From the NCBI GenBank assembly GCA_001600175.1, contig BCJC01000007.1, positions 620,001 to 684,000 on the forward strand: a stretch of 64,000 bases of DNA, read 5' to 3'. Origin of the DNA: Erythrobasidium yunnanense. Lineage: Eukaryota; Basidiomycota; Cystobasidiomycetes; Erythrobasidiales; Erythrobasidiaceae. Each line of letters starts with the position of its first letter. The stretch's first letter is position 1. A program made the position numbers and the translations under genes. Below, one piece after another: positions 1,700-37,012 of this stretch. The notes below the pieces were generated by a model. That model saw nothing but the letters and a program-made list of their open reading frames with translations, did no database searches and was not told the origin of the DNA.

Positions 1700-4361
1700 C
1701 TAGTCGAAGCACTGGCATTTGTCTGGATCGCCCTCTGTTGCTCCCTGGCATGCATCCGCAATCGCTGGATCTTCGCAGCCGAACATGACAGTCCAGAAGC
1801 GCTCGAGCATGTGGCCTGATCAGCAGCAGAACTGTAAGCATCAAGCTTGTACTAAATGAAGTGCAGTCACCTAGGTATGGATTGGTTGGCCCCGGCTCCT
1901 AAGTATAGGCCATCAGGATGCGCAAAATTATAGGCAAATTAGTGTGACCACGCACCCCGTGATACTTCCACCATGTACCTTCGCCGTAGATCCAGTGACC
2001 TTCAGGGGCCTATTATATCTGTCAGTCAACGCGGCGAGGCGTTCTTCTAGAACCGACCTCGTATATATCGTCCCAGCCTTGATACTTGCTGTATGAGTTG
2101 GCGACTATAAAGTCAACTTCAGCGATTTGCTATGCTATAGGGAGGCGATCTCAAGCTTACGAATTCTCTTTCTGGAGACGAAAAATTGCGCTGCGTAGCT
2201 TGCCAATTGATGTGTGGGCGGGCAGAACTACGAAGGCCAAAAGACATCAGCAAGGACAAGGGCGTCTCGAAGCGAATGTGCCAACCGTGTCGCGGAAGAG
2301 GGCATAAATCTGCGGATATCGGTCGAAGTCGCCTATCCGAGCAAGGAACATGTTAACAAGTCCGGAGCCAGCTTGACAATCAGTTACGTACCGTTGCCTG
2401 CCATGTCTTTTGCGCAGTCCATCGTAATGTAAGGGCCCTATGAACATGTTCAGCAAGATTCACCCAGGTACCTATCGGCAAGACTTACGAGGGCCATGAA
2501 GCCAGTGTTGTCTCGGTACGAATCAATTCGCTGTCGTGCAATCCAGTCCCAGGCCAGATGCTGCATGTGCACAGATCAGCTTGTGAGCTGTATATGCACG
2601 GCCCAGCTTCACTTACAGGCTGAACAAAGAGCGTCTTGTCGGCCAAGCCTTTATGAATGTCTGTCCTCATGGATGGATTGATAGTAGCATTGTAATTCAG
2701 GAGAATATGCTTCAGGTAAGTCCCGCCTTCTCTGCCAGTATTCGGTAGGCGGATGATCTGCTGCACTCCGGTGTCCCTTCGAAGAGTTTCGACGTCCGTC
2801 TCGTTGTTCTTGAGATACAGTATCCAGTTTATGTCAACATTGCGATTCTGTAAGCGAGAGGAGATCTCGTTCTTGAGCTGATGGAAGCCTTCCATGGGCT
2901 CGTTGTAGTAGCTTATAACTACGTCGAGCGTTCTGCCTTCTGCGATCGATTGCTGCTGTGGGATCCAGGAAGTAGGGGATTGATAGCTGAAGCAGCTGCG
3001 AGCAAGCCATGCTAGCCAAGGAACGAAAGAGATGAGCAAGGCACGCTTGAAAGACTTGCTAGCCATCGAGACAGATATAGTATCGGTGTCGGCTTCTGTA
3101 TCACTGTCGAGTGACAGATACTTGCTGCGAAAGGCGAACCTGAAGTCGCGACCTTCGGCAACCATTGAAGCCAGCACGACGAGCGTGATGAGAGCGATGA
3201 TGCACACTTCGAGATTTGACGAAGACCATCCTAGAAGAAGCGTGAAACAGCATTTGGCTATAATGACGAGCCCGAAAGCTGGCAGCGACGGCATTGTTCG
3301 CAGAGCGTTGAGGGCTGACCAATCCCTTGCAACGGCTAGCATAATATAGGCGGCGAAATATGCGGCGCTGTAGCGGTCCAGATGCTTGAAAGCGCCTCCA
3401 AAGCCAGCCACCGGCAGGACAGTCGTCAGTTGCAGCAGGGCAACAATCTGAACGATCGAGTCAGCAAGTGATCGGCTAACCTAATAGTAGCGAGCTTACT
3501 GGCGAACATGCAGCTATCAGTCCGAGCTCAGTCATTCCATTCTGTAGAGGCGTTCTCGCCCAAATCCACCGGAAGGCTTCGCTAACCGCCAGTACAGTAA
3601 CAGTAAGGGCTCCAGACCGTATAGTTGTAATGTCCAACAAGGAAGTTGCAAGCAAGGCCGGTACCAAGACTATACAGCAAGCTGCTGAAAGATCTATGCT
3701 ACCTGGAACATCCTTGTCGAGATACTGCGCTGCCAGGAGAAGGACTGGAGCTGCATATGTCTGCATAGGTATACGTCAGAATGCCTTGGCACAATCGACC
3801 ACCTTGCAATGCTCGTACCAAAATACTCTGGCCAACCAAGTGATCGGTCCAGAAAGCTTGATAGACGTATGTCACTGAAGCCACGAAAGAGAAGACTGCC
3901 AGTAGAGCGAATTGAAGCCATGCAGTAGAAGGTAGAAGGGTGTAGTTGTCGCCAAGGTGTGCCGACAAATCCTGTACGCGTCCGCTTGCGCCCAGCACCC
4001 GCACAAGAACGACAGCGATAAGGACTACCAGTGCCTGACCAGGTAAAAAGAGGACCAGACTGCTTGGATTGCGTATACTTAGGCGGTTGAGCAAAAGATC
4101 ATATGCACAATTGATGACCAGAAATAATACGACAGCTCTGGGCTGCGTAGACGTAGCATTGTCGTTCGCAGTCAATGTATAGGTATTGTATAATTCATTG
4201 GTGCCGTTTGCGACTTCGTCTTGTACTGAATCTTGCGACGTTCGCAGACTGCCCGCTTCTGCTTCTGCAAGAAATTGGTCGACCAACTCGAGTTCGTCTG
4301 CGCCTTTGTCATTACGTCTATTGCTACTAGGACCAGCGTTTGGCCCTTCTTTCTCGCTCAT
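1700..4361 (-). CDS. Multi-span membrane protein with C-terminal DUF3431 domain, paralogue A
   Basis: Predicted protein of about 700 residues. A polar N-terminus (MSEKEGPNAGPSS) leads into roughly eight hydrophobic segments, such as AVVLFLVINCAYDLL and AWLQFALLAVFSFVASVTYV. The C-terminal half is a DUF3431 domain: VVISYYNEP, INWILYLKN, then NTGREGGTYLKHIL, followed through short introns by HLAWDWIARQRID, GPYITMDCAKD, RYPQIYALFRD, FFVSRKRILANSY and GHMLERFWTVMFGCED. It ends with CQCFD and TAG. DUF3431 is a fungal family of unknown function that looks glycosyltransferase-like; fusion to a polytopic membrane domain is what the sequence shows here. About nine introns were joined by phase and by comparison with the tandem copy at 4683-7044. 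The start ATG is clear. Boundaries are good, function unknown. Confidence 0.75.
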
Positions 4362-4682
4362 CGCTGCATGTTGAGACTCTTTGGGCGGAGCTCAAGCCAA
4401 GGTACAGGATTTACGACACGTGCCTCGTTCAGTCGACACCGGTAGGTATTGCGTCTAGAACGCTGGAGTACTATAATGAGAATCTCCTGGCTGTCCTCAT
4501 TCTGACCATGAAGCTCCCCCTTGCAGTCTGCCTCTAGCGCCTTTGGTCGGGACAGGCTGTGAGATCAGGCTATTGTCGCCTTGTCGCGCCTGCTAGTGCT
4601 AGCTGTCTGGCGTATATCCTACGAGTATATCATAGGGCGGCGAAGGAGTTGTTGCTAAAGCAAAGCCTTTGCGAGGCTTACT

Positions 4683-7044
4683 TTAGCCGCTATCAAGGCA
4701 TTGACACCCCGCGCCTAGAGGGAAGTTATCGTCGCCTTTGCAGATATCTGCAATCTCTTCATGGTCGCAGTCGAATATGACTGGCCAAGAGCGCTCGAGA
4801 GCGTGTCCTAGAAAAGGGTTGGCCGGACCAAGAGGTCTATGATAGGCAGAAGTCAGCTTGCTGAGCACAAAAAATAAGGATGGTAGTACACCCACACGCC
4901 ATGGAAGTTGTCCCACTCGGAGTCTGAGTGTATCCAATGACTGCGGTCGGCCTGTCCAGAGACTGCGGTGAGCTAGGGAGGATTACCTTAGGGAGCAGGA
5001 CATTCGTACCTCGAGCGTATCATCTAGCATCTTGTACTTCGCATAAGAGTTTTGTACTGCATGAGAAGAGTCAGCTCAGTAAGAGCGAAAAACGGATTGG
5101 TCCTACGAATGCGCTTCTTCGAAACGACAAATTGGCCAGCATACGCAGACAAGCGGTATCCATGGGGGCAGAACTTTCAATGAAGCGTGAGCACCACTCC
5201 TTGCCAAGCTAGGTTCAGACTGCTCACCTGCTCGCGAAAGATCGAATAGATCTGCGGGTATCGCACAAAGTGGCCGTTTCCTTCCAAGTCTCTGCCATCA
5301 CAGTTCATCTTGATGTATGGAGCTAGATGTAGGTATCCCGTATCATCTTGAAACAGCCAGAGCCGTTCTTGCGCTATCCAAAACCAAGACATGTGGCCTT
5401 GGAAGAAGAGCGTATGATCTGCCAACCCTGTCCTGTATCCTTTGCTGAGGGAGGGATCGACGGTCTCGTTGTACCTCGACAAGATGTGCCGTAGGTAGCT
5501 GCCTGCCTCTCGACCTTTGTTCTCCAGCCTGTACACCTCGTCGAATTTGACTTCTTTTTGTAGAGCTTCTGCATCTATTGCATCATTCTTGACATATAGG
5601 ATGAAACGAGGATCTCTGTGTCGGATCCAGGGGTAGTATAGCAGGTTCTGAGTGAAATTGTATAGCTGGTCCACCGGTTCGTCATAATAAGACACGACGA
5701 TGTCTACCGTATTCAGTCTCGGCGTCTGTGCTCGGAAAGCGGCTGTCACAGTGTCGAGGCTGACAGGGAAGGTGTATGCCTGGAGATACAGCCATAAAGC
5801 AAACGGAAGCATAGATGCGCCAAGCAATAAGCGCTGCGATGGCTGTGCTCGCTCGGCTTGTCCGTTTGGAGACGTGACTCCCACTATCGCTGTTATCCTT
5901 GAAAGTCGTAGCTTGTCTCGCACTTCAGGCGTGACGATCGCAAGCGCGGCCATTGCGCAAGCGAAAGTAAGATATATCTGCCGAGTAGCACCCAAGCTCA
6001 CTGCTCCAAACACTCCTCCATGTAGAAGAGTTGTCAGGAGACCCCTGGGGACGCTCAATGAGGCCACCGATACAGGTGATTCCGTAAGCTGGATAGCTTG
6101 ATGCTGGAAGTACTGGTTCGCAAAGGAAGATATCGAGTAGAAGAGGATGTAGAACTGATATAGGAACGGTTTATGCATGCCGGCACCGTAGTGTAACGAG
6201 ATGGGGAGGATCGTCAAACTCGTGATAGCCAGACCTACCTGAGGCAGCTTGATCAGCGAAACTCTGGCTAATGGATCAGATACTCCTCACCGGTGCAGAG
6301 TGGATTACAGTCTCGATAGGCGAGCTGTTCTTTGCGACCGACCATTGCTTACCGAGGCTCAGCTTGAAAGCCTCTGCAAACACGCATATGACCAAGAAAA
6401 GTCCGCCTCTTGCCGCGACAGTAAAGTTTAGGAGTCCAAGAGCGAGTGTGAAAGGAATAATATACGCCAGTGCAATGATCAAGCTGTTTGACGGGACCAA
6501 GAGCGGTAAATGGACAATCGATAAGGCCAGCAGGACCACCGGAACGATATACGGCTATTTCACGTAGGAAGATTAGCGACGCAGCATTGTATCAGTGGCA
6601 TGGTCTACTTACAGCTACTGTGGCCGTAACAGCCATTTGCAAGTATCCAGCTTGCAACAAATAGGCTGCTGTCGAGATGATGGTACAGAGGGCCAGCGGA
6701 ACAGCATCTCTCCAAGCCGGCGATGGCCTCAGAGAATCTTGACTTCCCACGTACGGCTGCAAGAACTTGATGCCTTGCTTCCTAGCGAGATATCCCAAAA
6801 TCGCGAAGAAAGCCATTTGCATGCTTGCATCGATAGGCAGAAGTATAAGAGCATTTGGCCATGTTGTCCTCTGTGCGATCTTGTATAGAAGTAGCTCATG
6901 GAAAGTACTTGCTAGGAAATGATAAGCCAGAGCACGGGTCTTGGTGATGCTGCTTCCTGTATAGGCGGACGAAGAGCCTTGGCCTAGCATGTATGAAGAT
7001 CCATTTGCTTTGATAGAGAGACCACGACGAGAAGATCCGTCCAT
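4683..7044 (-). CDS. Multi-span membrane protein with C-terminal DUF3431 domain, paralogue B
   Basis: Tandem paralogue of the next gene downstream, with the same layout. A Ser-rich N-terminus starting MDGSSRRGLSIK is followed by several membrane segments (NALILLPIDASMQMAFFAIL, YIVPVVLLALSIVHLPLLV), then DUF3431 with DIVVSYYDEP, FILYVKND and NKGREAGSYLRHIL. FFQGHMSWFWIAQERLW, RYPQIYSIFRE, FVVSKKRILQNSY and NPFLGHALERSWPVIFDC follow. The end is CQCLDSG and TAA. Intron positions largely match paralogue A, which supports both models and a gene duplication. The frame runs open upstream to about 7128 without an ATG, so the first ATG at 7044 is used; an extra 5' exon is possible. Function is unknown; the product probably sits in an endomembrane or the plasma membrane. 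Confidence 0.72.
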
Positions 7045-7480
7045 AATGCTGCGGAAGTCACGAGAAATATCGATAGAGCCAGAAAATCCTGAAGGTGTAT
7101 CGCTTTCGGCGGGAGGAGCCTGCTTCACGGAGAACTATTGACGTTCTGAATATCGCTTGCTGCCTGGCAGCGGCGTCTGCTTCCAAAGAGCCCCCGAGCT
7201 ATCCAACGAGGCTTCTTGGTGCTTAGACGGTCCCTTAGATTCGCAACGCTTGCGGTAGTATGTAGAAATCTAGATGTATAAAGAGTGTGCGAATGCCATT
7301 GTGCGTAGTTGTGTGTGTCTATGGACAAGTTGTGCAAAGCCGGAGAGTGTCATCGGAATATGCATGTTTGCTGATCTAAAGCTACAGAAATGACGATGCT
7401 AGATATAACGGAAGATACAGAGTCGAATGATCCGCCAACAAGCTCAATTCCTTCAATATTGGCCTCGTATTCGCAGGAAG
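7045..7480. other. Intergenic, DUF3431 B/F-box-like
   Basis: Upstream region and leader of DUF3431 paralogue B, then the 3' end of the F-box-like gene. The frame of paralogue B stays open to about 7128, so part could be coding if an upstream exon exists. Nothing else is recognised. Confidence 0.4.
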
Positions 7481-14045: not shown

Positions 14046-17000
14046 TTATCGGGGCTTTGCACTTCTCCTGCGGAGGCTTGACGCTACAGATCCATCTCGT
14101 ATAAGTTGAATGTCTGTATCAACATTAGGCCTCGGTTTGCTCACCTTGTGACCTGTGCCGTTGCTACGGGCTATAGCAGCCTCCGCTACGCCCGCCCGCT
14201 TCTGAAGCGTCTTGAGCATATCTAAGATTTCGAGGTCTGTCTGCCTTGTAACGAGGAGCAGTTCTGTATCTCCAAGAGTTTCGTAATGCTCTACGCATGT
14301 AACGATGGTCGAAGTCTTGGTTGTGATTTGGGACAGGTAGCAATACGAGTTGTCAACCTTGCACTGGCAAGGTCCGTCTGGTCCAGACCTCTGATCCACG
14401 ATCTCCACCAAGCTAGGTATGTCACTGCGAGCTTGCATACGATCTGACAGCTCCCGGATGACCATTTCTTCGAAGAGAGGCAGAAGCCATTTGGCTGTGG
14501 TTTGGCTCTTCTCGGTGAGGAAGATCGTCATCAAAAGCTCGTCGTGTGAGAAGACTGGCGGCTTGCTCATTTCGCGATATCTTCGAACGCAGCTGAGGTC
14601 CTCTTTCAGCCAGTCGGGAAGGCAGAAGTTGACTGCTTCATTGTAGTTCATGTCGTGACTATGAGCATTATAGATCAGTCATGTCCTCCTGATGAGTACT
14701 GTTTTACTTACTTGAACCCGGCATGGTATGCTTTCGGAAAAGTAATGACAAACTCGTTTGGTCTTTGATCGCACACGCTTACTCGTACGCCGGCCTTCTT
14801 GAGTCGACCAGGGCTCATCAGAGTGACGAGCTGGAACATCAGATCTGGTTGTTGTTGGAAAAGCTCGGGAGCAGCTGCTTTCATCGCATCTTCCAGCAGT
14901 TGATCGTCTTCGCCCGGAACGCCGTACCAGGTCTTGGTCCCGCCCCAGTGATGGTAGTTGACGCTGTATGCCATCTGAGTTCACGCGTACTGCCTGGTGA
15001 CGAGTTGAGCTTACGAGTATGTGTAATGATCCTCTTTGTGCCAAGCGAACGTCGAGAAGAGCATCCCGACGTATCCCTGGAACAACGTATGAGCACTTCT
15101 CGTCTTCTCGAGATAAGCATACTCGCCCAAGGAACGGTCATGCCGCAGATGTCAGACTTGACGTATCGTAGTAACGATCCAGGAATGATTGGGCTGTTGT
15201 TCTAAGTCAGCATCATATAAAGGCATGCGGAATTCTTCTCACAGGTTGTTGAGATTCCACCCATCTCTGGCGTACGGGTTGTCCGGGAATTTCGGTAGCG
15301 AGGGTATCGCACTGTAGACGTCGAAGCAATGTTAGTTTCGTTACGTCGATAAGAGACGTAAGAGGCTTACCTTCCGCAAGTCGAAGTATGCAAGTCTGCT
15401 CCGTACTCAACCTCAATATCTTCTTGGGGCTTCTCGATCAGTCTCCAGAACTCTCGCTCGAGATGTTCCTCAATGGCAAGCTCCTTGACCCAGTCTTCGC
15501 CTTGGCCTCTCCACTCCGCAAAAGGCACTTCTCGTTCAGGTAGAGGATGTCGTTCGAGCCAATCTTGACGAAAGGCAGTGGCCATTTTGTGAAAACTACC
15601 AAAGGTATGCTCGTTGCCTTCTTCGAAGCCGTAGTCTGCGCCAGTGGTTACGATGCATGTATCACAGATCCAATCGCCCTTTGGCACGGTCTCGAGAGGT
15701 GGTTCGAGGCATGTCAGGTGATATCCCTAATGTAGCAGTCGGCAGCTGTATCTGGCACAGAGTAACATTCCACACTCACTCGATCACAATCATCGCAAAG
15801 CAGAATGGACTCCTGCAGAATATGGTCAGGTCAATTGGGCAAAGTCGGTCTCTTCACTGCAGGGACTTACCTCATCTTCATCGCTCTGGCAGATCTCGCA
15901 AGCCTACGAATGTATGAGATCAGCATCTCGCTATCGAGCACCGCAGCTCCGTTACCCACGTCACCGGGCTTTGATGTTGGAGACGGTTCAGATTCCTCGT
16001 TGCCGCCCTCAATTTGTGATGCTGCTATAGGAGCGGGCTCAATAGAAGATAGATAGGAGAGGGCCATTCTTTGCAACTCATCGGCTGGAGAACCCTTATT
16101 TTGGGCTGGCGATGCGTTGAGAGCGGCGTTCAGCTTATCCGAAGCTGCTTGCACTTTCTGTAGTGTGACGGGTGATGCGCTCGAAGGACCAGCAGCTGCG
16201 TCCGAGGCCTTTAGACGGTCCTGAGGCGTGCTTCTCATACCTCCAGTCATTGATCCAGGCGTCTCATGCGGTGTTACGTTTGCCATGATCCTAACTCGAT
16301 AATCTTCGAACGGCTGAATTATGTTGCAGTAAGCATGCTTGATTTGTGCTGGGATGGAGGGGTCGCTTCTCAGGTCGAAACGCATTAACGTTGCGATGCC
16401 CGTCCAATTTCGCGCTTCAGAGACCTGCAGACGAGAGATTAGACCGTGAGAATGCAGTCCGAGACATTACTCACAGCCTGAAAGCCACCCAAGGCTGTGA
16501 CCTCCTTGCGTAGTCGCCACAGGTCGACAGGCTTTCCTCCGATGATGGGGATGGAGATCTTCATCTTCTGCTGCTGCTTGTGAAAGAGATACAGTTGTTC
16601 TAAGAAGTTGAGATTGGCCCGTGCGGATGCCTCCATCGAATTGAGGCGTTGCAAGCGCGTCGTGAACCGGAAGGTCTGCAGACACACTCAGCCTGGGATG
16701 AGTGCAAGATGGAACACTACATACCTCAGTATCGTGCGCAAACGGCGGCTGCCATCCCTCGGGCGGTATAACCTTGCACATGCCAAAGCCTCGGACTTTG
16801 GAGTCTTTCGTCACTTTGTCGATATATTGGAGAGGTTGAGCGAACTCTTCTACGGAAGGAGAGAAGATGGGACAGTGTTCCAATCCAAAGAGTCTGGCTG
16901 TGGAGCGGGGAGGAAGACGAGAGGGAGCGGAGGTGCGGATGTCTGAGAAATCCAGCGGAGGGCAAGAAGGCTTTCCATTGCTCGATTCTCCTGTATTCGA

Positions 17001-17156
17001 TGCTATTGTCGCTTTGCCGGGAGCCAGATGCGCAGAAGCGCTCACGGCTGTCGAAGATAAAGTCGCCTTGGCTGCTACCCCACCACGCCTTTGTGGACTG
17101 GCGATGGCAGCATCTCCTATCTTCTGCATATCGACGGGCTGCTCTGCTTGATTCAT
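14046..17156 (-). CDS. KDM5: KDM5/Jhd2-type JmjC histone H3K4 demethylase
   Basis: Fe(II)/2-oxoglutarate-dependent demethylase of methylated H3K4 in chromatin. Domain order: JmjN ([33 protein letters not shown]), ARID ([33 protein letters not shown]), and a linker. One PHD finger follows ([34 protein letters not shown]). Then comes JmjC with the metal-binding HKED in [14 protein letters not shown] and the later His in [14 protein letters not shown], and a C5HC2-type zinc region around [12 protein letters not shown]. Iron ligands look intact. About ten short introns were joined. There is no PLU-1 extension or second PHD, so size and layout are Jhd2-like. The ATG at 17156 is the first in frame. 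The C-terminus is uncertain: a GTGAGC donor at 14144 could splice to AAG|CTTACC and end at 13964. Confidence 0.85.
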
Positions 17157-17726
17157 CGTAGAAGAAGATCTTTGGATCCAGCTCGAGTCGCCGCGGGAGA
17201 TGGTCTTCAAAGGTTGCACGAGCTCGAATTCGGCAAGGCAACTTAACACTTTCCTTGATCCTTTCGATGCTTCTACGTGTCTTCAGCAAGCCTGGATCAA
17301 TCTGGCCATCATACTCTGGTCGGGACGATTGAATCGGGACACGGTGACAGGCGATGTCTGGCTCAGACTCGAAATTGACACATCGGATAACGGCTCAAAC
17401 AACATCCATGCCTCATACCTTTGTTATGTCGACTCAAACACGCTCCATGCGGCCGCTTCCCGTACAGCTTAGTGACAAATGAATCCTGGAGAGTCAGCGG
17501 GAACGATTGTCAGACAACCATCACGTCACTGTTCGGCTTCAGAAGTACACCAGGCTCTTGCTGAGAATATAGTGACTTTGATGGCAAAGACCGGCATTTG
17601 ATTCATCCAGCTTCGACTTCGCAATCAGAGTGGATACTAAAGCGAGTCTGGGAATGGAAAAGACAACGACCATGATGAGAACTTGAACGGCTGCCGAGCC
17701 TCGTTATACCTCCTGCTCCTACTGCC
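17157..17726. other. Intergenic, KDM5/Cys-rich gene 1
   Basis: Promoter side of the demethylase (to about 17.5 kb) and the 3' side of the first Cys-rich gene. Only short frames without family features are present. Confidence 0.4.
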
Positions 17727-18116
17727 CTAGACATCGAGCCACTCCCCTGTGAACTCAACCTTCTTGAGTTTTGTCGGACAGACAGTGCAGTAACGTCTGG
17801 TAACTTCGGTGACGGGTCTCATGCCTAAGACCTCCTCTCCATACTCGCGAGATACTACAGTGAGCCAAGGATGTTGCGGTATCTCCTTGTTGCAGAAATG
17901 ACCCGCCTCGTAACGAGGATGATTCTGCAGCACGCATGTCCATAACAGCGATCCGGCACCCAGACATAGGTCCATGTCGCAAGCCCTCCCTCGTCGAGTT
18001 CCACCTCTACCTACATAAGCACAGCGAATGGGCGGCACTACAGCATCTCGATTGCCTTGGCTACGAGCGGCCGATCCGGGCTGGATCTTTGCAGCTCTCC
18101 TACGCGGGCCAGGCAT
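17727..18116 (-). CDS. Small Cys/His-rich protein, array member 1
   Basis: Unrecognised 129-residue protein. It shares with members 2-5 the order C-x(n)-C-x-M-D-x-x-L, W-x-C, H-F-C, H-P, then Y/C-C-x2-C: here RACDMDLCLG, LLWTCVL, AGHFCNKEI, QHPWLT and RYCTVCPTKL, ending EFTGEWLDV. The N-terminus is Arg-rich with no obvious signal peptide. The spaced Cys and His could bind zinc or form disulfides; the sequence alone does not decide. A related module lies upstream at 18240-18495, so an upstream exon is possible. Expression and function are unknown. Confidence 0.55.
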   Translation of the reverse strand: MPGPRRRAAKIQPGSAARSQGNRDAVVPPIRCAYVGRGGTRRGRACDMDLCLGAGSLLWTCVLQNHPRYEAGHFCNKEIPQHPWLTVVSREYGEEVLGMRPVTEVTRRYCTVCPTKLKKVEFTGEWLDV

Positions 18117-18943
18117 TGCGACTGTGACTGCCGAGTAAGTTAGCTAGGAGCCTGAGTAAGCCAAGAAGCTCGCATGAACCTGATGCAGACTTCCGCGCTT
18201 GGAAAGATGCGAATGCTGTATGCGAAATGGTAGTAAGAGTCGGTCTTGCGAGGGGATGAAGCCAAGGACAGAGCACGTCGCGCCCAACAGCTAGCCCGCG
18301 CCCAACAGCTGGCCCATCCAAAGCAGCGCCTTCTGACGGCAGTGCAAATGGTCCAGCGGAGCGATCTACGCCCGGTGGAGTCAGTCTCGTACCTCCAGCG
18401 AGCGCGAAGGTGTCCGCAAGGCCATGTAAACGTTGTGACGGTCGAGGATGAGTGAAGCGGGCGTCAGCCTGGTGAAAGCGGAAAGTGAGATAGCATACAG
18501 ACTGGCCCAATGATGCTCTGTTAGAGATCTTACTCGCTTCGGAGCCAATAGGAGTCCTGTGCAAGGTATTGACTGACTCTACGTCAGCGTTGTATTGACT
18601 GGCTCCGGTCGAGATGCCGATCTGTCAGTATATTCTGTGATAAGCTTCGGCGATCCCCTCAACCGGATGCAATACACCGCATTGCAGCATTCTGAGAGTA
18701 TAAGAAGTTGGAAGAGAGCGGGTTGCTCTACATGCTTGGAGAGGCAGGGCTTGCAAACAGAAGTGAGTTTAAAGAGCAGATAGAATAACGGTAGTATCTA
18801 GCGTGTCGTGTAAGTGAAGTGAAGTGGATAGGAGGTTTCTTCGGTTCGCGGAGGGTATAACTTGTTTTCTTGGTGAGGGCAGACCACAGTACTGGAAGTA
18901 GGACTGCAAGCTGCGCTTCGAGATGAGAGGAGTGCATCACTCT
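18117..18943. other. Intergenic with array module, Cys-rich 1/2
   Basis: Contains the module described separately at 18240-18495 and a further 450 nt, up to the stop of member 2, in which I see nothing defined. Confidence 0.4.
18240..18495 (-). repeat. Array-associated upstream module, copy 1
   Basis: Aligns by eye with 19480-19725: shared blocks include GGATGAAGC...GAGAGCA, CAACAGCTAGCCC, GCAGCGCC...CTGACGGCA, and GGCCATGTAAxCGTTGTGA. Copy 1 carries a short internal tandem duplication of CGCGCCCAACAGCTxGCC near 18289-18325 that copy 2 lacks. It may be a promoter element or a diverged first exon. Confidence 0.6.
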
Positions 18944-19357
18944 TCACTCATATGCAGGCCCTCCGTTACCCCTCCTTGGGACGCTGACCCAACGGCCCGT
19001 ATCTATTTCATCGGTCATCTTTGTAGAGCAGACAGCGCAGTAATGCTCGGTGACTTCTATGATGGGTGCTCTGCCTGAGACCTCCTTGCCGCGTTTGTAA
19101 GAGATCTTGAATAAGCAGGGGTGGTCGTCGCGCTTGCAGAAATAATCGGCTTGGTGTGTAGTATGGGAACGCCGGATACAAGCCCATCTCTCCGACCCGG
19201 CCATCAGGTACATATCCTTACCGCAGATGCGTTCACCCCGTCCAGATCGATACTGACAGGTCTTGTGCGGCACTGAGAAATCTCGATAACCACGGCTATA
19301 TGCGAACGATGTACGAAGAGCGGTCGCAACTTCGAGGCGTTGGCTTGAGCTAGCCAT
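18944..19357 (-). CDS. Small Cys/His-rich protein, array member 2
   Basis: Unrecognised protein of 137 residues starting MASSSQRLEVAT (first ATG in frame). It carries SRGYRDFSVPHKTC, RICGKDMYLMAG, ERWACIR, ADYFCKRDDHPCLF, and EHYCAVCSTKM, then a W-V terminal segment. The RGYR-x4-P-x-KTC motif is shared with member 3, and CG-x-DM-x-L and W-x-C with members 3 and 4. This is the clearest representative of the family. No signal peptide or membrane segment is seen. The upstream module at 19480-19725 lies about 120 bp before the start. Confidence 0.6.
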   Translation of the reverse strand: MASSSQRLEVATALRTSFAYSRGYRDFSVPHKTCQYRSGRGERICGKDMYLMAGSERWACIRRSHTTHQADYFCKRDDHPCLFKISYKRGKEVSGRAPIIEVTEHYCAVCSTKMTDEIDTGRWVSVPRRGNGGPAYE

Positions 19358-19948
19358 TGCGGGACAGGATATCTGGTGATGAGGTGTTGTAGGCTGGGTA
19401 GATAGCAAGACCAGGTTACGATCTTAGGTAGTTGTTTGAGAGGCCAAGCGATATCTGTGAGGTGATTGTGGGATTTGGTCCTGCTCGAGGATGAAGCAGA
19501 GGAGAGAGCACCCCGCGTCCAACAGCTAGCCCACTCCGGAGCAGCGCCTACTGACGGCAATGCAAGTGGTCGGGCGGAGAGATCTACGCACAACAGGGCT
19601 CGTCTCTTGCTTTCAGCGTGCGCGGACGTGTGCGCAAGGCCATGTAAGCGTTGTGATTGTATGGACTGAGCGAAGCGGATGTCAGCCTGGGAAGAACATG
19701 AAGAGTGAGATGGCATACATATCGCTTGAAGTACAGCATCGCCGGCCTTCGCGAGGTGGAGAGTCATAGTCGAGGAAATTGCAATTGAAACGAGGCATCT
19801 TCTACTACAAGGCGAAGATCGAGAGTCAGGTTCGGGGCATCATTTGGCACAGAGAGGAAAGATGGCTGCAGGTGCTCGCGAGATAGATGGGTACGGAGAG
19901 TGGGGATGAGACAGGACCAGACAACGACTGACTTGAGTATGGGCTTTC
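19358..19948. other. Intergenic with array module, Cys-rich 2/3
   Basis: Contains the second module copy (19480-19725) and the 3' side of member 3. A minus-strand open frame from the ATG at 19767 crosses the module and could be an upstream exon, but I cannot place splice sites with confidence. Confidence 0.4.
19480..19725 (-). repeat. Array-associated upstream module, copy 2
   Basis: Diverged direct repeat of 18240-18495, in the same orientation and the same position relative to its gene. Read on the minus strand, both copies keep the peptide-like series SQRLHGLA, VDxSAxP and ALPSxGAA in one frame, which hints at coding but is not proof. Confidence 0.6.
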
Positions 19949-20362
19949 CTAATGACCCCAGCGGACGAATTCGTTCCTTTCGGTCATCCCCCCGTCGTAC
20001 GGACAGATGGTGCAGCACTTGTATAGCTGTCTTCGAGTAGCTACCGCATTGTAGCCGGGAGCCAAGATAGTGTAGTACACCCACCTTTTTACGAAGGCGT
20101 GTTCGTCATCGTCATCCTCGCAGAAGTCCACAAAGTCCCGATGATGCCTTTTGTTGCCGGGACATCTCCACATGATTGTGAGTGGCTGGTGAACATCTTG
20201 CATCAGGTGTATATCTTGACCGCATGGGTGACCACTAGAACTCCTGCCACGTCCTGATGTCTGCACGCTCATCGTGCAGGTTTTCTTTGGTACAAGGCCA
20301 CGGTACCCCCGCAGAGACGCCGCAGAAGTCGCCAGAGCATTACTATATTCGTAGATTGGCAT
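19949..20362 (-). CDS. Small Cys/His-rich protein, array member 3
   Basis: Unrecognised 137-residue protein starting MPIYEYSNALAT. It carries LRGYRGLVPKKTC, HPCGQDIHLMQD, IMWRCPGNKRHH, DFCEDDDDEHAF and a C-terminal KCCTICPYDGG ending VRWGH. The order of Cys motifs matches members 2 and 5. The acidic run after the third motif replaces the HPC of member 2. No signal peptide is visible. Its upstream region (20363-21072) has no clear module copy. Confidence 0.58.
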   Translation of the reverse strand: MPIYEYSNALATSAASLRGYRGLVPKKTCTMSVQTSGRGRSSSGHPCGQDIHLMQDVHQPLTIMWRCPGNKRHHRDFVDFCEDDDDEHAFVKRWVYYTILAPGYNAVATRRQLYKCCTICPYDGGMTERNEFVRWGH

Positions 20363-21072
20363 GGTTGCCAGAATTGACCTCTAAGTACATGAAGCATTGT
20401 CATCAGCCCAGGAACATTGGATCTGGGCTGATAGACTTACGTTGTCGCCTGCACAGTCGGGCGATGTCGCTCCAATGTACAAGGAGCTGAGACGCCCAGG
20501 CGCTTGATCTGTATCTGTCGTATGACGAGAGGGAATGGACTCCTTGCCGTCCTCAACGAAAACATGGCGTACGGCTGGCGGTGCGTAGGCGCTGCAGAAG
20601 GATCTTGCTCGACAAGAGGTAATCGACAGGAGCTCATCTGTTGACTTGAGTGAGAGTCAACTTGTCGATTTCAGACAAATCAATCGATGCTGCAGCGCCA
20701 TCGTTGAAGTGCTCCGACAACCGTAGATTGCGTGGAGGTCTGACTTTGATAGGATCAAATTACGATCTTGTTAACGAAAGGTATGCATGAAAGCAAAGGC
20801 AAGACTTTATGGCTTCCGCCACTTGGTCCCTAATATGGGTTGTCGAAGTGAACGATGATGAACAGACAAGGTGGGACTTCGGACATGAGAGTACCCAAGA
20901 TGTGCCGAGTTGCTGCTTGTGATGATCAGGTCACGTCGGGGACCATTACAGAGGGCTTGCGGACTGCTGGGACATTAAGTGAAGGAAGAGGACAACGGTA
21001 GGGAGGCAGTAAGATGAGAGAGGCCAGACAACATTGACAATCATACGCAGTCAAATCTGGCTCACCAATTCT
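20363..21072. other. Intergenic, Cys-rich 3/4
   Basis: About 700 nt between members 3 and 4. I could not find a clear copy of the upstream module here, and no other gene, RNA or mobile element is recognised. Confidence 0.4.
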
Positions 21073-21273
21073 TTAAGGCGGGCAGTGAAACTTGTTGTTC
21101 TCCCCCAGATTACATCGCCATTTCTCATTTGCCTGTAGTGTCATGTCCTTGTGACCGCAGTATTGCGATTTGTGAATGTGCCAATGATTGCAAGTCTTTG
21201 CAGGTACCATTTGCGTGCATGACGGGTCACGTATGCGAGCTGCTGAGCCCTCTCGAACCGTCGCACGACCCAT
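21073..21273 (-). CDS. Short Cys/His-rich protein, array member 4
   Basis: Only 66 residues, starting MGRATVREGSAA. It keeps the first half of the family pattern: MVPAKTCNHWHIH, QYCGHKDMTLQANE and KWRCNLGE, then ends FHCPP. The DFC/HPC and terminal C-C-x2-C parts are absent from this frame. It may be a decayed copy, a natural short form, or have an unseen 3' exon. It has a module upstream (21400-21560). Confidence 0.45.
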   Translation of the reverse strand: MGRATVREGSAARIRDPSCTQMVPAKTCNHWHIHKSQYCGHKDMTLQANEKWRCNLGENNKFHCPP

Positions 21274-21874
21274 CTACATCACTGCGACATTAGGATGTGT
21301 ATTGGAGCTCTGCATGCCGCGCTCGCGCTCACTATTGCTTCTTCTGATGCGGTCGTGAATGGGCTCCTTTGCGCTGTGGGTGTAACGCTTTGGCGGTTAG
21401 GTGAAAGCGGAGGAGAGAGCAGCTCCCACCGTCGCTCCGAGTTTTGCCCACGACTGGGCGGTGCATTGGAGTGAAAGGCAGGGACTCACTCCTAGCATTG
21501 AGAGGAGTCCAACGAGATCACAAGGTGATGCACTCTCGACTGTGAACCTGTACTTGCAGAGTCCGCCCAGCTGCTCCATACAAGGTGCTGATCCTAGTTC
21601 GTATGTGAGAGCATGGAACATATGCCGAGGTGCAGCGAGGTGCGTTCGTGCTGACAGTCCGACCGCCTTCGCTTTTCCACTTTCAAGGCAGCAGAAGTGA
21701 AGGTTTAAGTGATTCCAGCGGCGATTCCGTAGAGTAGTGCACATTGGCTTAATGTTCGGCTCAAGCTTGAATTGGTTGAAGTTATCATTTAGAGAGCGGG
21801 ATGACGGAAGCAGACAGTACGAGAATGTGAGAACAGGCAGAATGATGTATATGCTTGATCCAAGCTTTAAGCGC
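21274..21874. other. Intergenic with array module, Cys-rich 4/5
   Basis: Contains module copy 3 (21400-21560). A long minus-strand frame (21397-21939) overlaps both the module and the end of member 5; its coding status is unclear. Confidence 0.4.
21400..21560 (-). repeat. Array-associated upstream module, copy 3
   Basis: Shares with 22432-22560 a near-identical block of about 45 nt, from GCGGAGGAGAGAGCAGCTCC through CACCGTCGCTCxGAG to TTTTGCCCACG, then drifts. The AAGCxGAGGAGAGAGCA core is also in copy 2, linking all copies. Confidence 0.65.
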
Positions 21875-22297
21875 TCAAGCGGTGAAATAATCAGCGGGTA
21901 ACGGATCGTTGGGCCCGCACCATTTGCCACACCACTCACGGACTAGGTCTCTCGTCTCGTAATCGCACAACGTGCAGCATTTCCAGGTGCTCAGTAAGAC
22001 GGAATATGAACTAGAGATCTCATGCCCACGTATATGTTTATTGAAAGTTACGCAAGGGTGCTTTCCTTGATCACAGAAGTGCCCTGGATCCAGGATTTGA
22101 TGTCGTCTCTTGGTATCGCACGCCCAGAGAGCAGGTCTCCCAGTAGGTCGGTCGTACAGTCTCGCGTGTTGTGGGCACTGTTTCTGCTTCCGGTGACGCC
22201 CGATGCTGATTATGTGTTCGCAAGGGACGCCTGCCACTGGGCCAGAATAGCGCCTTTGATAAGCGGCGGATTCTTCTGGGCACTGTGAAAGACCCAT
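21875..22297 (-). CDS. Small Cys/His-rich protein, array member 5
   Basis: Unrecognised 140-residue protein starting MGLSQCPEESAAY. Motifs: AGVPCEHI, KQCPQHARLYD, ALWACDTKRRH, GHFCDQGKHPCVTF, STWKCCTLCDYE and a terminal EWCGKWCG. It has the most Cys of the five, and HFC-x4-HPC matches member 2 closely. Just upstream a GTAAGA donor and a TTTCACAG acceptor within the first codons suggest an alternative model with an upstream exon. No hydrophobic leader is apparent. Confidence 0.58.
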   Translation of the reverse strand: MGLSQCPEESAAYQRRYSGPVAGVPCEHIISIGRHRKQKQCPQHARLYDRPTGRPALWACDTKRRHQILDPGHFCDQGKHPCVTFNKHIRGHEISSSYSVLLSTWKCCTLCDYETRDLVREWCGKWCGPNDPLPADYFTA

Positions 22298-23113
22298 ATG
22301 TCTAACTCAAATAGTCAGCGAGTGTGGAGCCGCAGACGGAGCAGCTCTTACAGCTATCAGACCAGTGGTAATATGACTTTGTTATATTGCAAGTGTTGTC
22401 TGGGGAGTCCAAGGCGTGTGACGATGTAGTGTGAAGCGGAGGAGAGAGCAGCTCCCACCGTCGCTCAGAGTTTTGCCCACGCTGGGCGGTGCCTTACAGT
22501 CAAAGGGTCGAGATCTGCCCCCGTATCTAGAGCAATTCCAACAAGCTGACTCTGCTCGTAGTGTTTCGTACGCAGCCGCATATCTTGCACATGTAGCGAG
22601 CACTGTTGATCGCAACGAGTTGCTGTTGTAAGCTTCATGAAAGGGTCGCAGAGGCACAAAGGGCAGGTATATTGACTGGACAGATACCCAAGGACGGCGT
22701 GCTTGTTCTGCATCGAGCTGAAACGTGTCACTCAGCCAGGCAGGCATCCTGAATCAGCGCGACTTCCGAGAGTCAAGCGCCGATGTGCGTGATGTAAAGA
22801 GCGAGCGAGGAAGATGTGTCATGATGGGGATTTGGTGACTATATTCGCGCGGCATGAGTCTGTTCGAGTTGTGATTACTCGAGCATGGGAGAAGGTCAGG
22901 GCGGCAGATCAGAGTGGGAGCAATGACTTGTGTGTCAGTGTAGCAGTAGCAGTCACACTTGTACGAGCTTTGTGAGTTAAACGCTTCTCCTTTTCTGACT
23001 TCTCTCTTTCGTTGCCACTTTTTGGGAAAAATTCCATCTTCTGCGCCGAAGTCAAGGGAGAAGAGCTTGCCTGCTGAGTCCCGATCCAGAGCATCAAGAC
23101 AGCAAGAACGACG
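22298..23113. other. Divergent region, Cys-rich 5/RPL19
   Basis: Contains module copy 4 close to member 5, then about 550 nt leading to RPL19 that should hold the ribosomal-protein promoter. I could not assign defined elements. Confidence 0.4.
22432..22560 (-). repeat. Array-associated upstream module, copy 4
   Basis: Closest partner of copy 3 (about 45 near-identical nucleotides). It lies roughly 135 bp upstream of member 5, the same relative position as copy 3 before member 4, so gene and module seem to have duplicated together. Confidence 0.65.
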
Positions 23114-34344: not shown

Positions 34345-35020
34345 CGAAAGAGGTTCTGAAGGATCCAGCTATGTTCGCAAGACTTTTCAAAAGTCTGAAG
34401 AATTGCAAGAAGGTGTTCAAACCGAGTGCGAACGAAGATAAGAGCGAAAACTCAGCGATCGCGAAGGTGTCTCAGCGTCTGACGATGTCCAAGTCTGTTT
34501 GGCGAGGCAGTGATATAGTTCTGTCTGACGAAAGCCACGATATGACCGCGGACACACTGACAAGTCAATAACATACACGAAGTAAATAAATCTATCAATC
34601 CAGCTCCGCCTGTCTCGAGAACCCTTTGCTCTCCGATGCTGTCCACGATACCTTCCCTCCTTACTCAGAGCCTCCTGCTGCGAGAAGACTTTTCGATGGA
34701 AATCAGAAGACACGCGAGTGCAGCAAGGCAGCCGGAACGGCTCCGAAGGACCGTGAGACAGGAGGTCGCGAACGACATCGACCTGATAGTCGACTCGTGC
34801 ATTGCTCATTCCATAAACGATTACATAAATTGCCAACATATTGTGTCTGTCCTGCTATGCCTCTGTCTTGACGATGAAAGGCCTTGGAGGACGATTAAAG
34901 GCAGCTGGACTAAGGAGTGAACCCTTTCTGAAGAGGTGGACCTAGACTGAGTAGCAGGGCAGTAGACAATCCAGTTACCGTTGCCGTCTGCAACATAGTA
35001 TAGGAGCCTTGTAAGGGCTG
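34345..35020. other. Divergent region, bHLH/unknown repeat protein
   Basis: Holds the upstream regions of two divergent genes. A 94-codon ATG-started plus-strand frame (34636-34920) has no recognised homology and no clear splice context; I leave it uncalled. Confidence 0.4.
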
Positions 35021-37012
35021 ATGGCTACGACAACCATGACGATGTCAGGAGCACCCAGCAGGTACGCTCAGAGCAGAAGTCGCCCTGCAGGTGCGTCTTG
35101 TCGCTGCGTATGGTCCACAAGGGTACTGACTCTACAGTCATCACAGCTTCATCCAGACGGTCAAGCTGTACCTCCATAGGTCTAGTACAATCGACGCCTG
35201 CACGTCGCAGCAGCACGACTTCCATCATCAATCCACAAGGCACACAAGCCCCCTCTACGTACCTGCTCAGCGATCAAGAAGCCTTTGCAGCAGCAAAGAC
35301 GAAAGATAGCATCTGGTCACGCCATGGAGCCAAGGACGCTCAGCATGAAAGTCAATCAGACCTGCTCGTGAAGCGAGTGACGGCTTTGAAATCGTCTCTG
35401 CAGGCGATTCGTACGGAGTATCAATTATGGCAGGCAAGAGTTGAAACCAATAATGCAGACACTATAACTACGAAGATCGATAAACTGGCGGTACAATTCG
35501 ACACCAGGAAGCTCACAGCCTTGGGGAGGCAAGCCCACACTGAGAGCGTGGCTTGCGCAAGATTGGCTGCTCAGTGGCTGATCGGCCGTACGAACCCTCA
35601 GAAGCAGAACTGGTACGCGAAGATAGGCCGCGTGCAGTCGGATTATCCCATATTGAAAGATGACGTAGAGGTCCTCCTCAAGGAGATACAGACTCATACA
35701 GCAGCGCGAGCTGCTCAACAAACAGGCCTAAAGCTGTTGAAGCCTGTGGTTGACCTGAAGGCATCTCTGCAAGCTATTCGAGAGGAGTATCAACTATGGC
35801 AAGTGACGGCTGTGCCAGACGAGGCCGACCCTCGGGTCAAGAAGATCGAGAAGCTGGCTATGCGGTTCGACATGAGCAAACTCGTAGCCATACACAAGCA
35901 AGGCAATGCCGAAAGTGCGGGGAAATCAGGTCGTGTACAAGCTGAGTATGCCAGCTTGAAGAAAGATACAGAGGTTTTGCTGAAGGAGATGCAGACATAT
36001 GCCATGGCGAGGCTAGTAAAGCAAACCGAATTAGAGAGGGTAAGCATTCTACCACCATTCCCGCTCCCAACCGCAAATATCCGCTGATCGAGCTACCTGA
36101 CCGACATGACAGCAAGAGCGACTGGAGCATATTAGGAAGAACATGCCACGGCCAGCCTTTCTGCCAGGGAAACCCAAATATAAGGCGCGCGACGGTAGCA
36201 GCAAGTACAAGCGACTGACTCACGAGCAGCTCTATGAACGTTTGGCATCCGATGACAAGCGTATCTACGTCAAAGGCGGCCTGTTCTACTTGTATACATC
36301 TCCTACAGCAGATCCAAATGACAACAGACTGGATTCAGATTCGCCCTGGCATGTTCGGATGGTGAAAGCCGGTACCACTATACAGATCAAGCAGGGTGAT
36401 TCTGGCTATACCCTGGATCTTTTGCGTAACGGTCAATGGTGTGTGCGTTACATCGAAGTCTACGACCACCAAGATCCGGGCTGGCTGGCTGAGGTCGTCC
36501 CTATCCAATCGCTGCACTACGATAACATCATCCCCAAACCTCCCCGCTGCGGTCCATATACAGATGAAGCGTATTATCGGAGAAGATGGTCCGCAACAAT
36601 GAACGAAGCACCTCCCGAATGGGCGGATAACGACGAGAACAATGAAGAGCCCCCGCCTGCTTATACTCCTGAATATACGGAAGGTCTGTATAAGAAACTT
36701 TTCGACCGCGCCAAGCGGGCACGCCTTGTGAAGTTAGGACGGCTGTGCCACCTTGAGGACGTGGTATATCCAGCACGACGCAAAGCTGCTGTAAGAAGAG
36801 TGGAGCGCATCCGCTGTAGGAAGCTAGGACGGCTTGCTCATATTGCTGATTTGGTCGACCCAGTGGTAAAACAAGACAAGATTGACCGGGAGGAGCATCA
36901 AAAGCTACAGGAGCAGTATGAGCAACTCGAGATAGAGGAATATTGGAAAAAGAAGGCTGAGAGGAAAGCTGCAAGAGAGCGCAGAACATCACAGCAATCA
37001 GGCCGAACGTAG
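35021..37012 (+). CDS. Unknown protein with two internal repeats and a charged C-terminus
   Basis: Three exons (35021-35090, 35138-36039, 36113-37012) give 623 residues, starting MATTTMTMSGAPSRYAQ. The N-terminal 80 residues are Ser/Thr-rich. Two homologous helical units follow: LKSSLQAIRTEYQLWQ, KIDKLAVQFDTRKLTALGRQ, VEVLLKEIQTHTAARAAQQT; and LKASLQAIREEYQLWQ, KIEKLAMRFDMSKLVAIHKQ, TEVLLKEMQTYAMARLVKQT. After the second intron comes MPRPAFLPGKPKY, a Tyr/Trp-containing region (LYKKLFDRAKRARLVKLG), and a basic coiled-coil end KKKAERKAARERR. I do not recognise the family. The second intron removes an in-frame stop and is well supported by GTAAGC, CTGAC and ACAG. Confidence 0.65.

Follow-up and report, generated by a model that had tools for sequence, protein, structure and literature searches.

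Five paralogous genes stand in tandem

We analysed a 64,000-nucleotide stretch of the Erythrobasidium yunnanense genome, positions 620001-684000 of contig BCJC01000007.1 (C7). This whole stretch is referred to as the window, and searches for further copies took in the genome, which comprises 20.9 Mb in 10 contigs. At 17727-22297 the window holds five open reading frames (ORFs), all on the minus strand and paralogous to each other. The gene g1 (17727-18116, 129 residues) shares 41% amino acid identity with g2 (18944-19357, 137 residues), which provides the reference numbering for Cys and His residues and was modelled with AlphaFold2. The gene g3 (19949-20362, 137 residues) matches a copy outside the window, at C7:774921, at an E value of 1e-9, and sequence reading places a putative 60-nt intron (20381-20440, minus strand, GTAAGT ... 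TTAG) in its 5′ untranslated region. The gene g4 (21073-21273, 66 residues) has the N-terminal half only and is a short copy or a relic, and g5 (21875-22297, 140 residues) encodes a protein with 11 Cys. A first-pass annotation made from the sequence alone had claimed five minus-strand genes here; all five ORFs were located and are paralogous beyond chance by profile. Its picture of an array of five short proteins holds in that the five ORFs are present, but only four of them are full length.

Protein searches of the genome revealed four further copies on C7, all on the minus strand: m611 (C7:611300-611686), m775 (C7:774921-775328), h1 (C7:278608-278958), and h2 (C7:279865-280197). The five genes of the array are adjacent as claimed, but they belong to a larger family, with nine or more copies on one contig. 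Nine is a lower bound, as the genome search scores best candidates only; with m611, m775, h1, h2, and g5 as queries, it returned no additional copies. Full-length open frames with an ATG are present in six of the nine copies, namely g1, g2, g3, g5, m611, and m775. In h2 an in-frame TGA directly precedes the CxxC, and family-like sequence with CxxC and Trp resumes beyond it. The head of the h1 frame has no ATG; a candidate intron with a GTAAGC start and a CTAAC branch-like site could connect an upstream ATG, in which case the acceptor would be AAG. The strand common to all nine copies was given no meaning, as the copies lie at four places only and the chance is about 1 in 8.

The relatedness of the copies was assessed with profiles against a background of 2311 stop-to-stop ORFs of at least 30 residues from the window and five fetched stretches. 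When each of eight members was left out in turn and scored with a profile of the other seven, E values were 1.9e-26 for g1, 4.3e-26 for g2, 3.4e-16 for g3, 6.5e-17 for g5, 3.4e-15 for m611, 1.7e-13 for m775, 8.9e-14 for h1, and 7.2e-14 for h2. The half-copy g4, which is in no profile, reached 4e-7 with the eight-member profile; across the eight leave-one-out profiles its E value ranged from 5.6e-8 to 3.8e-6. The top unrelated ORF had an E value of 0.17 with the eight-member profile, and of 0.032 at best across the nine profile runs. The array is a tandem paralogous family, its members being adjacent and related beyond chance.

Conserved Cys/His skeleton and predicted structure

We aligned eight members, leaving out g4, and numbered positions after g2. 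C34, C45, W58, C60, and H79 are present in all eight members. C74 is present in seven, with an Arg at that position in h1, and C107 and C110 are present in all seven members that reach that point. A His lies 8 or 9 residues N-terminal to C74 in all seven copies with C74, as counted by hand from alignment positions. There are eight candidate ligands in g2: C34, C45, C60, H65, C74, H79, C107, and C110. Two of the motifs noted in the first-pass annotation are thereby narrowed. In "HPC" the His is invariant in the eight aligned members, but the following Cys occurs in g2 and g5 only; in "CCxxC" the CxxC is found in seven of seven members, but the first Cys in four of them. A distance of 11 to 18 residues separates the first two Cys in seven of the eight aligned copies; in h1 they form CPRC, a type of spacing that known zinc ribbons have.

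All nine copies are basic, with isoelectric points of 8.5-9.6. Kyte-Doolittle hydropathy of the nine sequences (h2 taken without its Met, h1 with an uncertain start) gave no hydrophobic leader, the best 11-residue mean in the first 45 residues being at most 1.29, which agrees with the earlier statement that no signal peptide is seen. The Cys count in the six full-length open copies is seven in five and eleven in g5, hence odd in all six. The earlier suggestion of a fold held by zinc or disulfides is best read in favour of zinc: because no hydrophobic leader was seen and Cys numbers are odd in all six full-length open copies, zinc would suit the family better than disulfides.

Structure prediction had been proposed as a way to look for a common fold. 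The AlphaFold2 model of g2 has a mean predicted local distance difference test (pLDDT) score of 87.5 and a predicted template modelling (pTM) score of 0.74. Two models were made for members that are 22% identical; both are confident, and their secondary structures mostly agree. The protein is predicted to open with a ribbon-like N-terminal hairpin, with long strands forming a sheet in the C-terminal part. From residue order and the predicted strands, the candidate ligands may be paired into two successive zinc sites, C34/C45/C60/H65 followed by C74/H79/C107/C110.

Coding sequences are under constraint

Among the 28 pairs of the eight members, identity at codon positions 1, 2, and 3 is 42, 46, and 32%, respectively, compared with about 26% upon random pairing. 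The closest pair, g1/g2, has a nonsynonymous divergence (dN) of 0.56 and a synonymous divergence (dS) of 1.27; dS is saturated in most other pairs. The ratio omega of g1/g2 is 0.44 with a bootstrap range of 0.22-0.72, and it reaches or exceeds 1 in 2 of the 391 defined replicates (9 of 400 were undefined). Because of this value and range, we conclude that g1 and g2 are under purifying selection on average. A selected Cys/His fold, as surmised earlier, is supported by the codon-position identities, the omega of g1/g2, and the two models sharing most of their secondary structure.

Upstream blocks are shared by three pairs of copies

We then inspected the DNA upstream of the copies, and found three paired blocks, each shared by two neighbouring copies. 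The g1 block (18295-18499, minus strand) is 77% identical to the g2 block (19512-19719, minus strand) over 208 alignment columns. The g4 block (21405-21478, minus strand) is 92% identical over 74 nt to the g5 block (22434-22506, minus strand), which contains TGCTCTCTCCTC. In h1 and h2, 235 columns upstream of the ATG align at 74%. None of the three blocks is shared by g3, m611, or m775. The pyrimidine-rich element TGCTCTCTCCTC starts at -153 from the ATG in g2 and g5 and at -148 in g4; g1 carries a variant with two base changes, starting at -159, and g3, m611, and m775 yielded no match to the element. No other genome copy of the g1/g2 block (query 18221-18472) or the g4/g5 block was reported by a search that skips very common words.

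In a blastn comparison of the coding DNA at an E value of 1e-3, g1/g2 aligned over a single piece of 68 nt, and g4/g5 and h1/h2 gave no alignment. Between g1 and g2, third codon positions are identical at 59 of 124 sites versus 160 of 208 in the upstream block (Fisher p 1e-7), the block having been chosen for its best match. The upstream mismatches of this pair, sorted by phase over about 400 nt to look for a sign of coding, number 32, 42, and 50 of 125 each and are mildly uneven, with phase being lost across gaps. The upstream blocks could reflect either gene conversion or constraint acting on a promoter or 5′ leader. Separately, a sequence unit of roughly 18 nt that includes AGCTGTTGGGCGCG occurs twice upstream of g1 (18277-18316, minus strand) and once in g2.

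Searches for known relatives

Searches by sequence, family, and fold gave no match over threshold. Among 5.8 billion proteins, the eight-row alignment had 173 candidates, all of them above E 1, and g2 had four, all above E 10. Because this search requires common 5-residue words, which are present in 6 of the 36 pairs of family members, its negatives say little about distant homologues; the orphan status of the family is tentative, and its being lineage-specific is possible. As a control, HIS4 of the window readily found fungi (at least 7999 scored, 120 matches listed). Among the matches listed, unnamed proteins from jgi, lgn, and ena sources show 75-78% identity, and the best named match covering at least 99% of the query is from Mixia osmundae (62%), a member of the Pucciniomycotina. 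Meredithblackwellia, Pseudohyphozyma, and Microbotryum, which belong to the Microbotryomycetes, follow in the same list at 59-60%. Two named matches disagree with this pattern: Anaeromyces robustus, with the second-best score (54% identity over 72% of the query), and Verticillium longisporum (65% identity over 52%). As judged by this single gene, the genome would lie near Pucciniomycotina. Among the papers listed in literature searches, none appears, by its title and the beginning of its abstract, to deal with the family.

At the curated cut-off, Zn_ribbon_Top1 (PF01396) is not reached by any copy, and its sole genome match is elsewhere (E 0.45). Zn_ribbon_GRF (PF06839) has no array match at E ≤ 10, and its cut-off is not reached by the family; its two genome matches, on contigs C8 and C1, are not family members, and the one on C8 is over the cut-off with an E value of 3.2e-9. 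The sole match on a viral contig (E 8e-5, candidate stretches only) runs antisense inside a 612-residue ORF and was taken as chance.

Possible roles of the family

The copies make up a genuine family that is under selection and diverging fast; its small proteins are probably of zinc type as judged from the sequence, and some copies are shortened (g4) or broken (h2). We favour, with a probability of roughly 0.5, a family evolving by birth and death whose products, small basic proteins of about 130 residues that are stabilized by zinc and not secreted, would act as binding proteins in the cytosol or nucleus. Tandem duplication would yield the copies, several of them together with their upstream region. 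Two successive zinc sites would hold each full copy together, with the metal core maintaining the fold, while the surfaces of the copies would diverge so as to bind different targets. The variable surface may bind nucleic acid or a partner protein; nucleic acid as the target is a tentative assignment. More speculatively, and on balance doubtful, the family might represent an undescribed zinc fold of one basidiomycete lineage, providing renewed modules that bind nucleic acid or protein in an intracellular genetic or antiviral conflict.

A different origin would be a known zinc ribbon, of the GRF or topoisomerase C4 type, that has diverged past recognition. The C...C...(aromatic)xC...C order of the GRF ribbon resembles that of the family, and the CG-x3-L-x(n)-W-x-C order is reminiscent of GRF and topoisomerase ribbons. 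The CPRC of h1, the top VIA alignment of model 1, which is with topoisomerase I, and sub-threshold matches to other zinc ribbons (E 0.11, 0.054, and 0.24) point the same way. However, the first two Cys of Zn_ribbon_Top1 and GRF ribbons come as CxC or CxxC, and this spacing differs in the other seven aligned copies. Moreover, neither Pfam family reaches a copy, model 2 has no match, and the family, unlike Zn_ribbon_Top1, has long strands and a further candidate site after its ribbon-like part. We consider this origin unlikely. The copies might also act outside the cell, as unconventionally secreted effectors or competition proteins in which the same zinc scaffold meets a host or rival and an arms race changes the surface. 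In size, Cys content, tandem arrangement, and divergence the family resembles small secreted Cys-rich fungal proteins, and broken copies, together with upstream blocks kept better than coding DNA in three pairs, would suit such a history. It differs from those proteins by the missing hydrophobic leader in the tested sequences, the odd Cys number, and the conserved His; on average, moreover, g1/g2 are not under positive selection (omega 0.44). Nothing was found in favour of the secreted or competition-related role that had been raised earlier. This account is rather unlikely.

That the copies are largely decaying relics, an old family without a role whose intact ORFs are left by chance, would fit the short g4, the TGA of h2, and the h1 frame unless its upstream intron is spliced. 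This is improbable: even though the closest pair has a dS above 1, six of the nine copies retain an ATG and an open frame of full length, and conservation is lowest at third codon positions. A further possible source is a mobile element or virus whose zinc domain was spread and then domesticated; such modules are common in transposases, and the copies occupy four separate places on the contig. Foldseek also returned short partial matches to phage proteins of 66 and 58 residues (probability 0.99 and 0.97, E 0.12 and 0.13), with template modelling scores (TM-scores) on the query of 0.30 and 0.28. Against viral models, however, no fold match was found at E ≤ 0.001. The g1/g2 and g4/g5 upstream blocks are not dispersed repeats, and the Pfam-matched neighbours are ordinary cellular genes in a scan covering 10 of the 35 large ORFs of the window and, in three fetched stretches, 6 of 14, so that this origin seems highly improbable.

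Fungal genomes commonly contain small families that lack known homologues, and these usually go unstudied. Here one genome contains enough diverged copies to give two confident models without outside homologues, which makes the fold and metal sites directly testable. The kept upstream blocks versus the changing proteins offer a usable case for why such families renew their sequence. The family lends itself readily to structural and evolutionary work; its function is inferred only.

Genomic neighbourhood

Downstream of the array, a KDM5-like gene (14046-17282) has Pfam matches to JmjN, the KDM5 helical domain, and C5HC2, and a sub-threshold match to ARID. On the other flank, a plus-strand gene starting at about 23.7 kb presumably encodes a protein resembling ribosomal protein L19. 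The neighbouring ORFs with Pfam matches are KDM5-like, Rit1, AIP3, an oxidoreductase, RhoGAP, and ornithine decarboxylase-like. The window has a second diverged tandem pair at 2485-4391 and 5177-7134 (minus strand), where adjacent gene pieces with SYYNEP / SYYDEP stretches are 34% identical over 150 residues (E 3e-27), with a second aligned pair at 24% over 134 residues (E 8e-10); their two larger ORFs have no Pfam match at 0.01. An ORF at 34999-36087 (plus strand) contains an internal repeat, with SLQAIR-EYQLWQ occurring twice.
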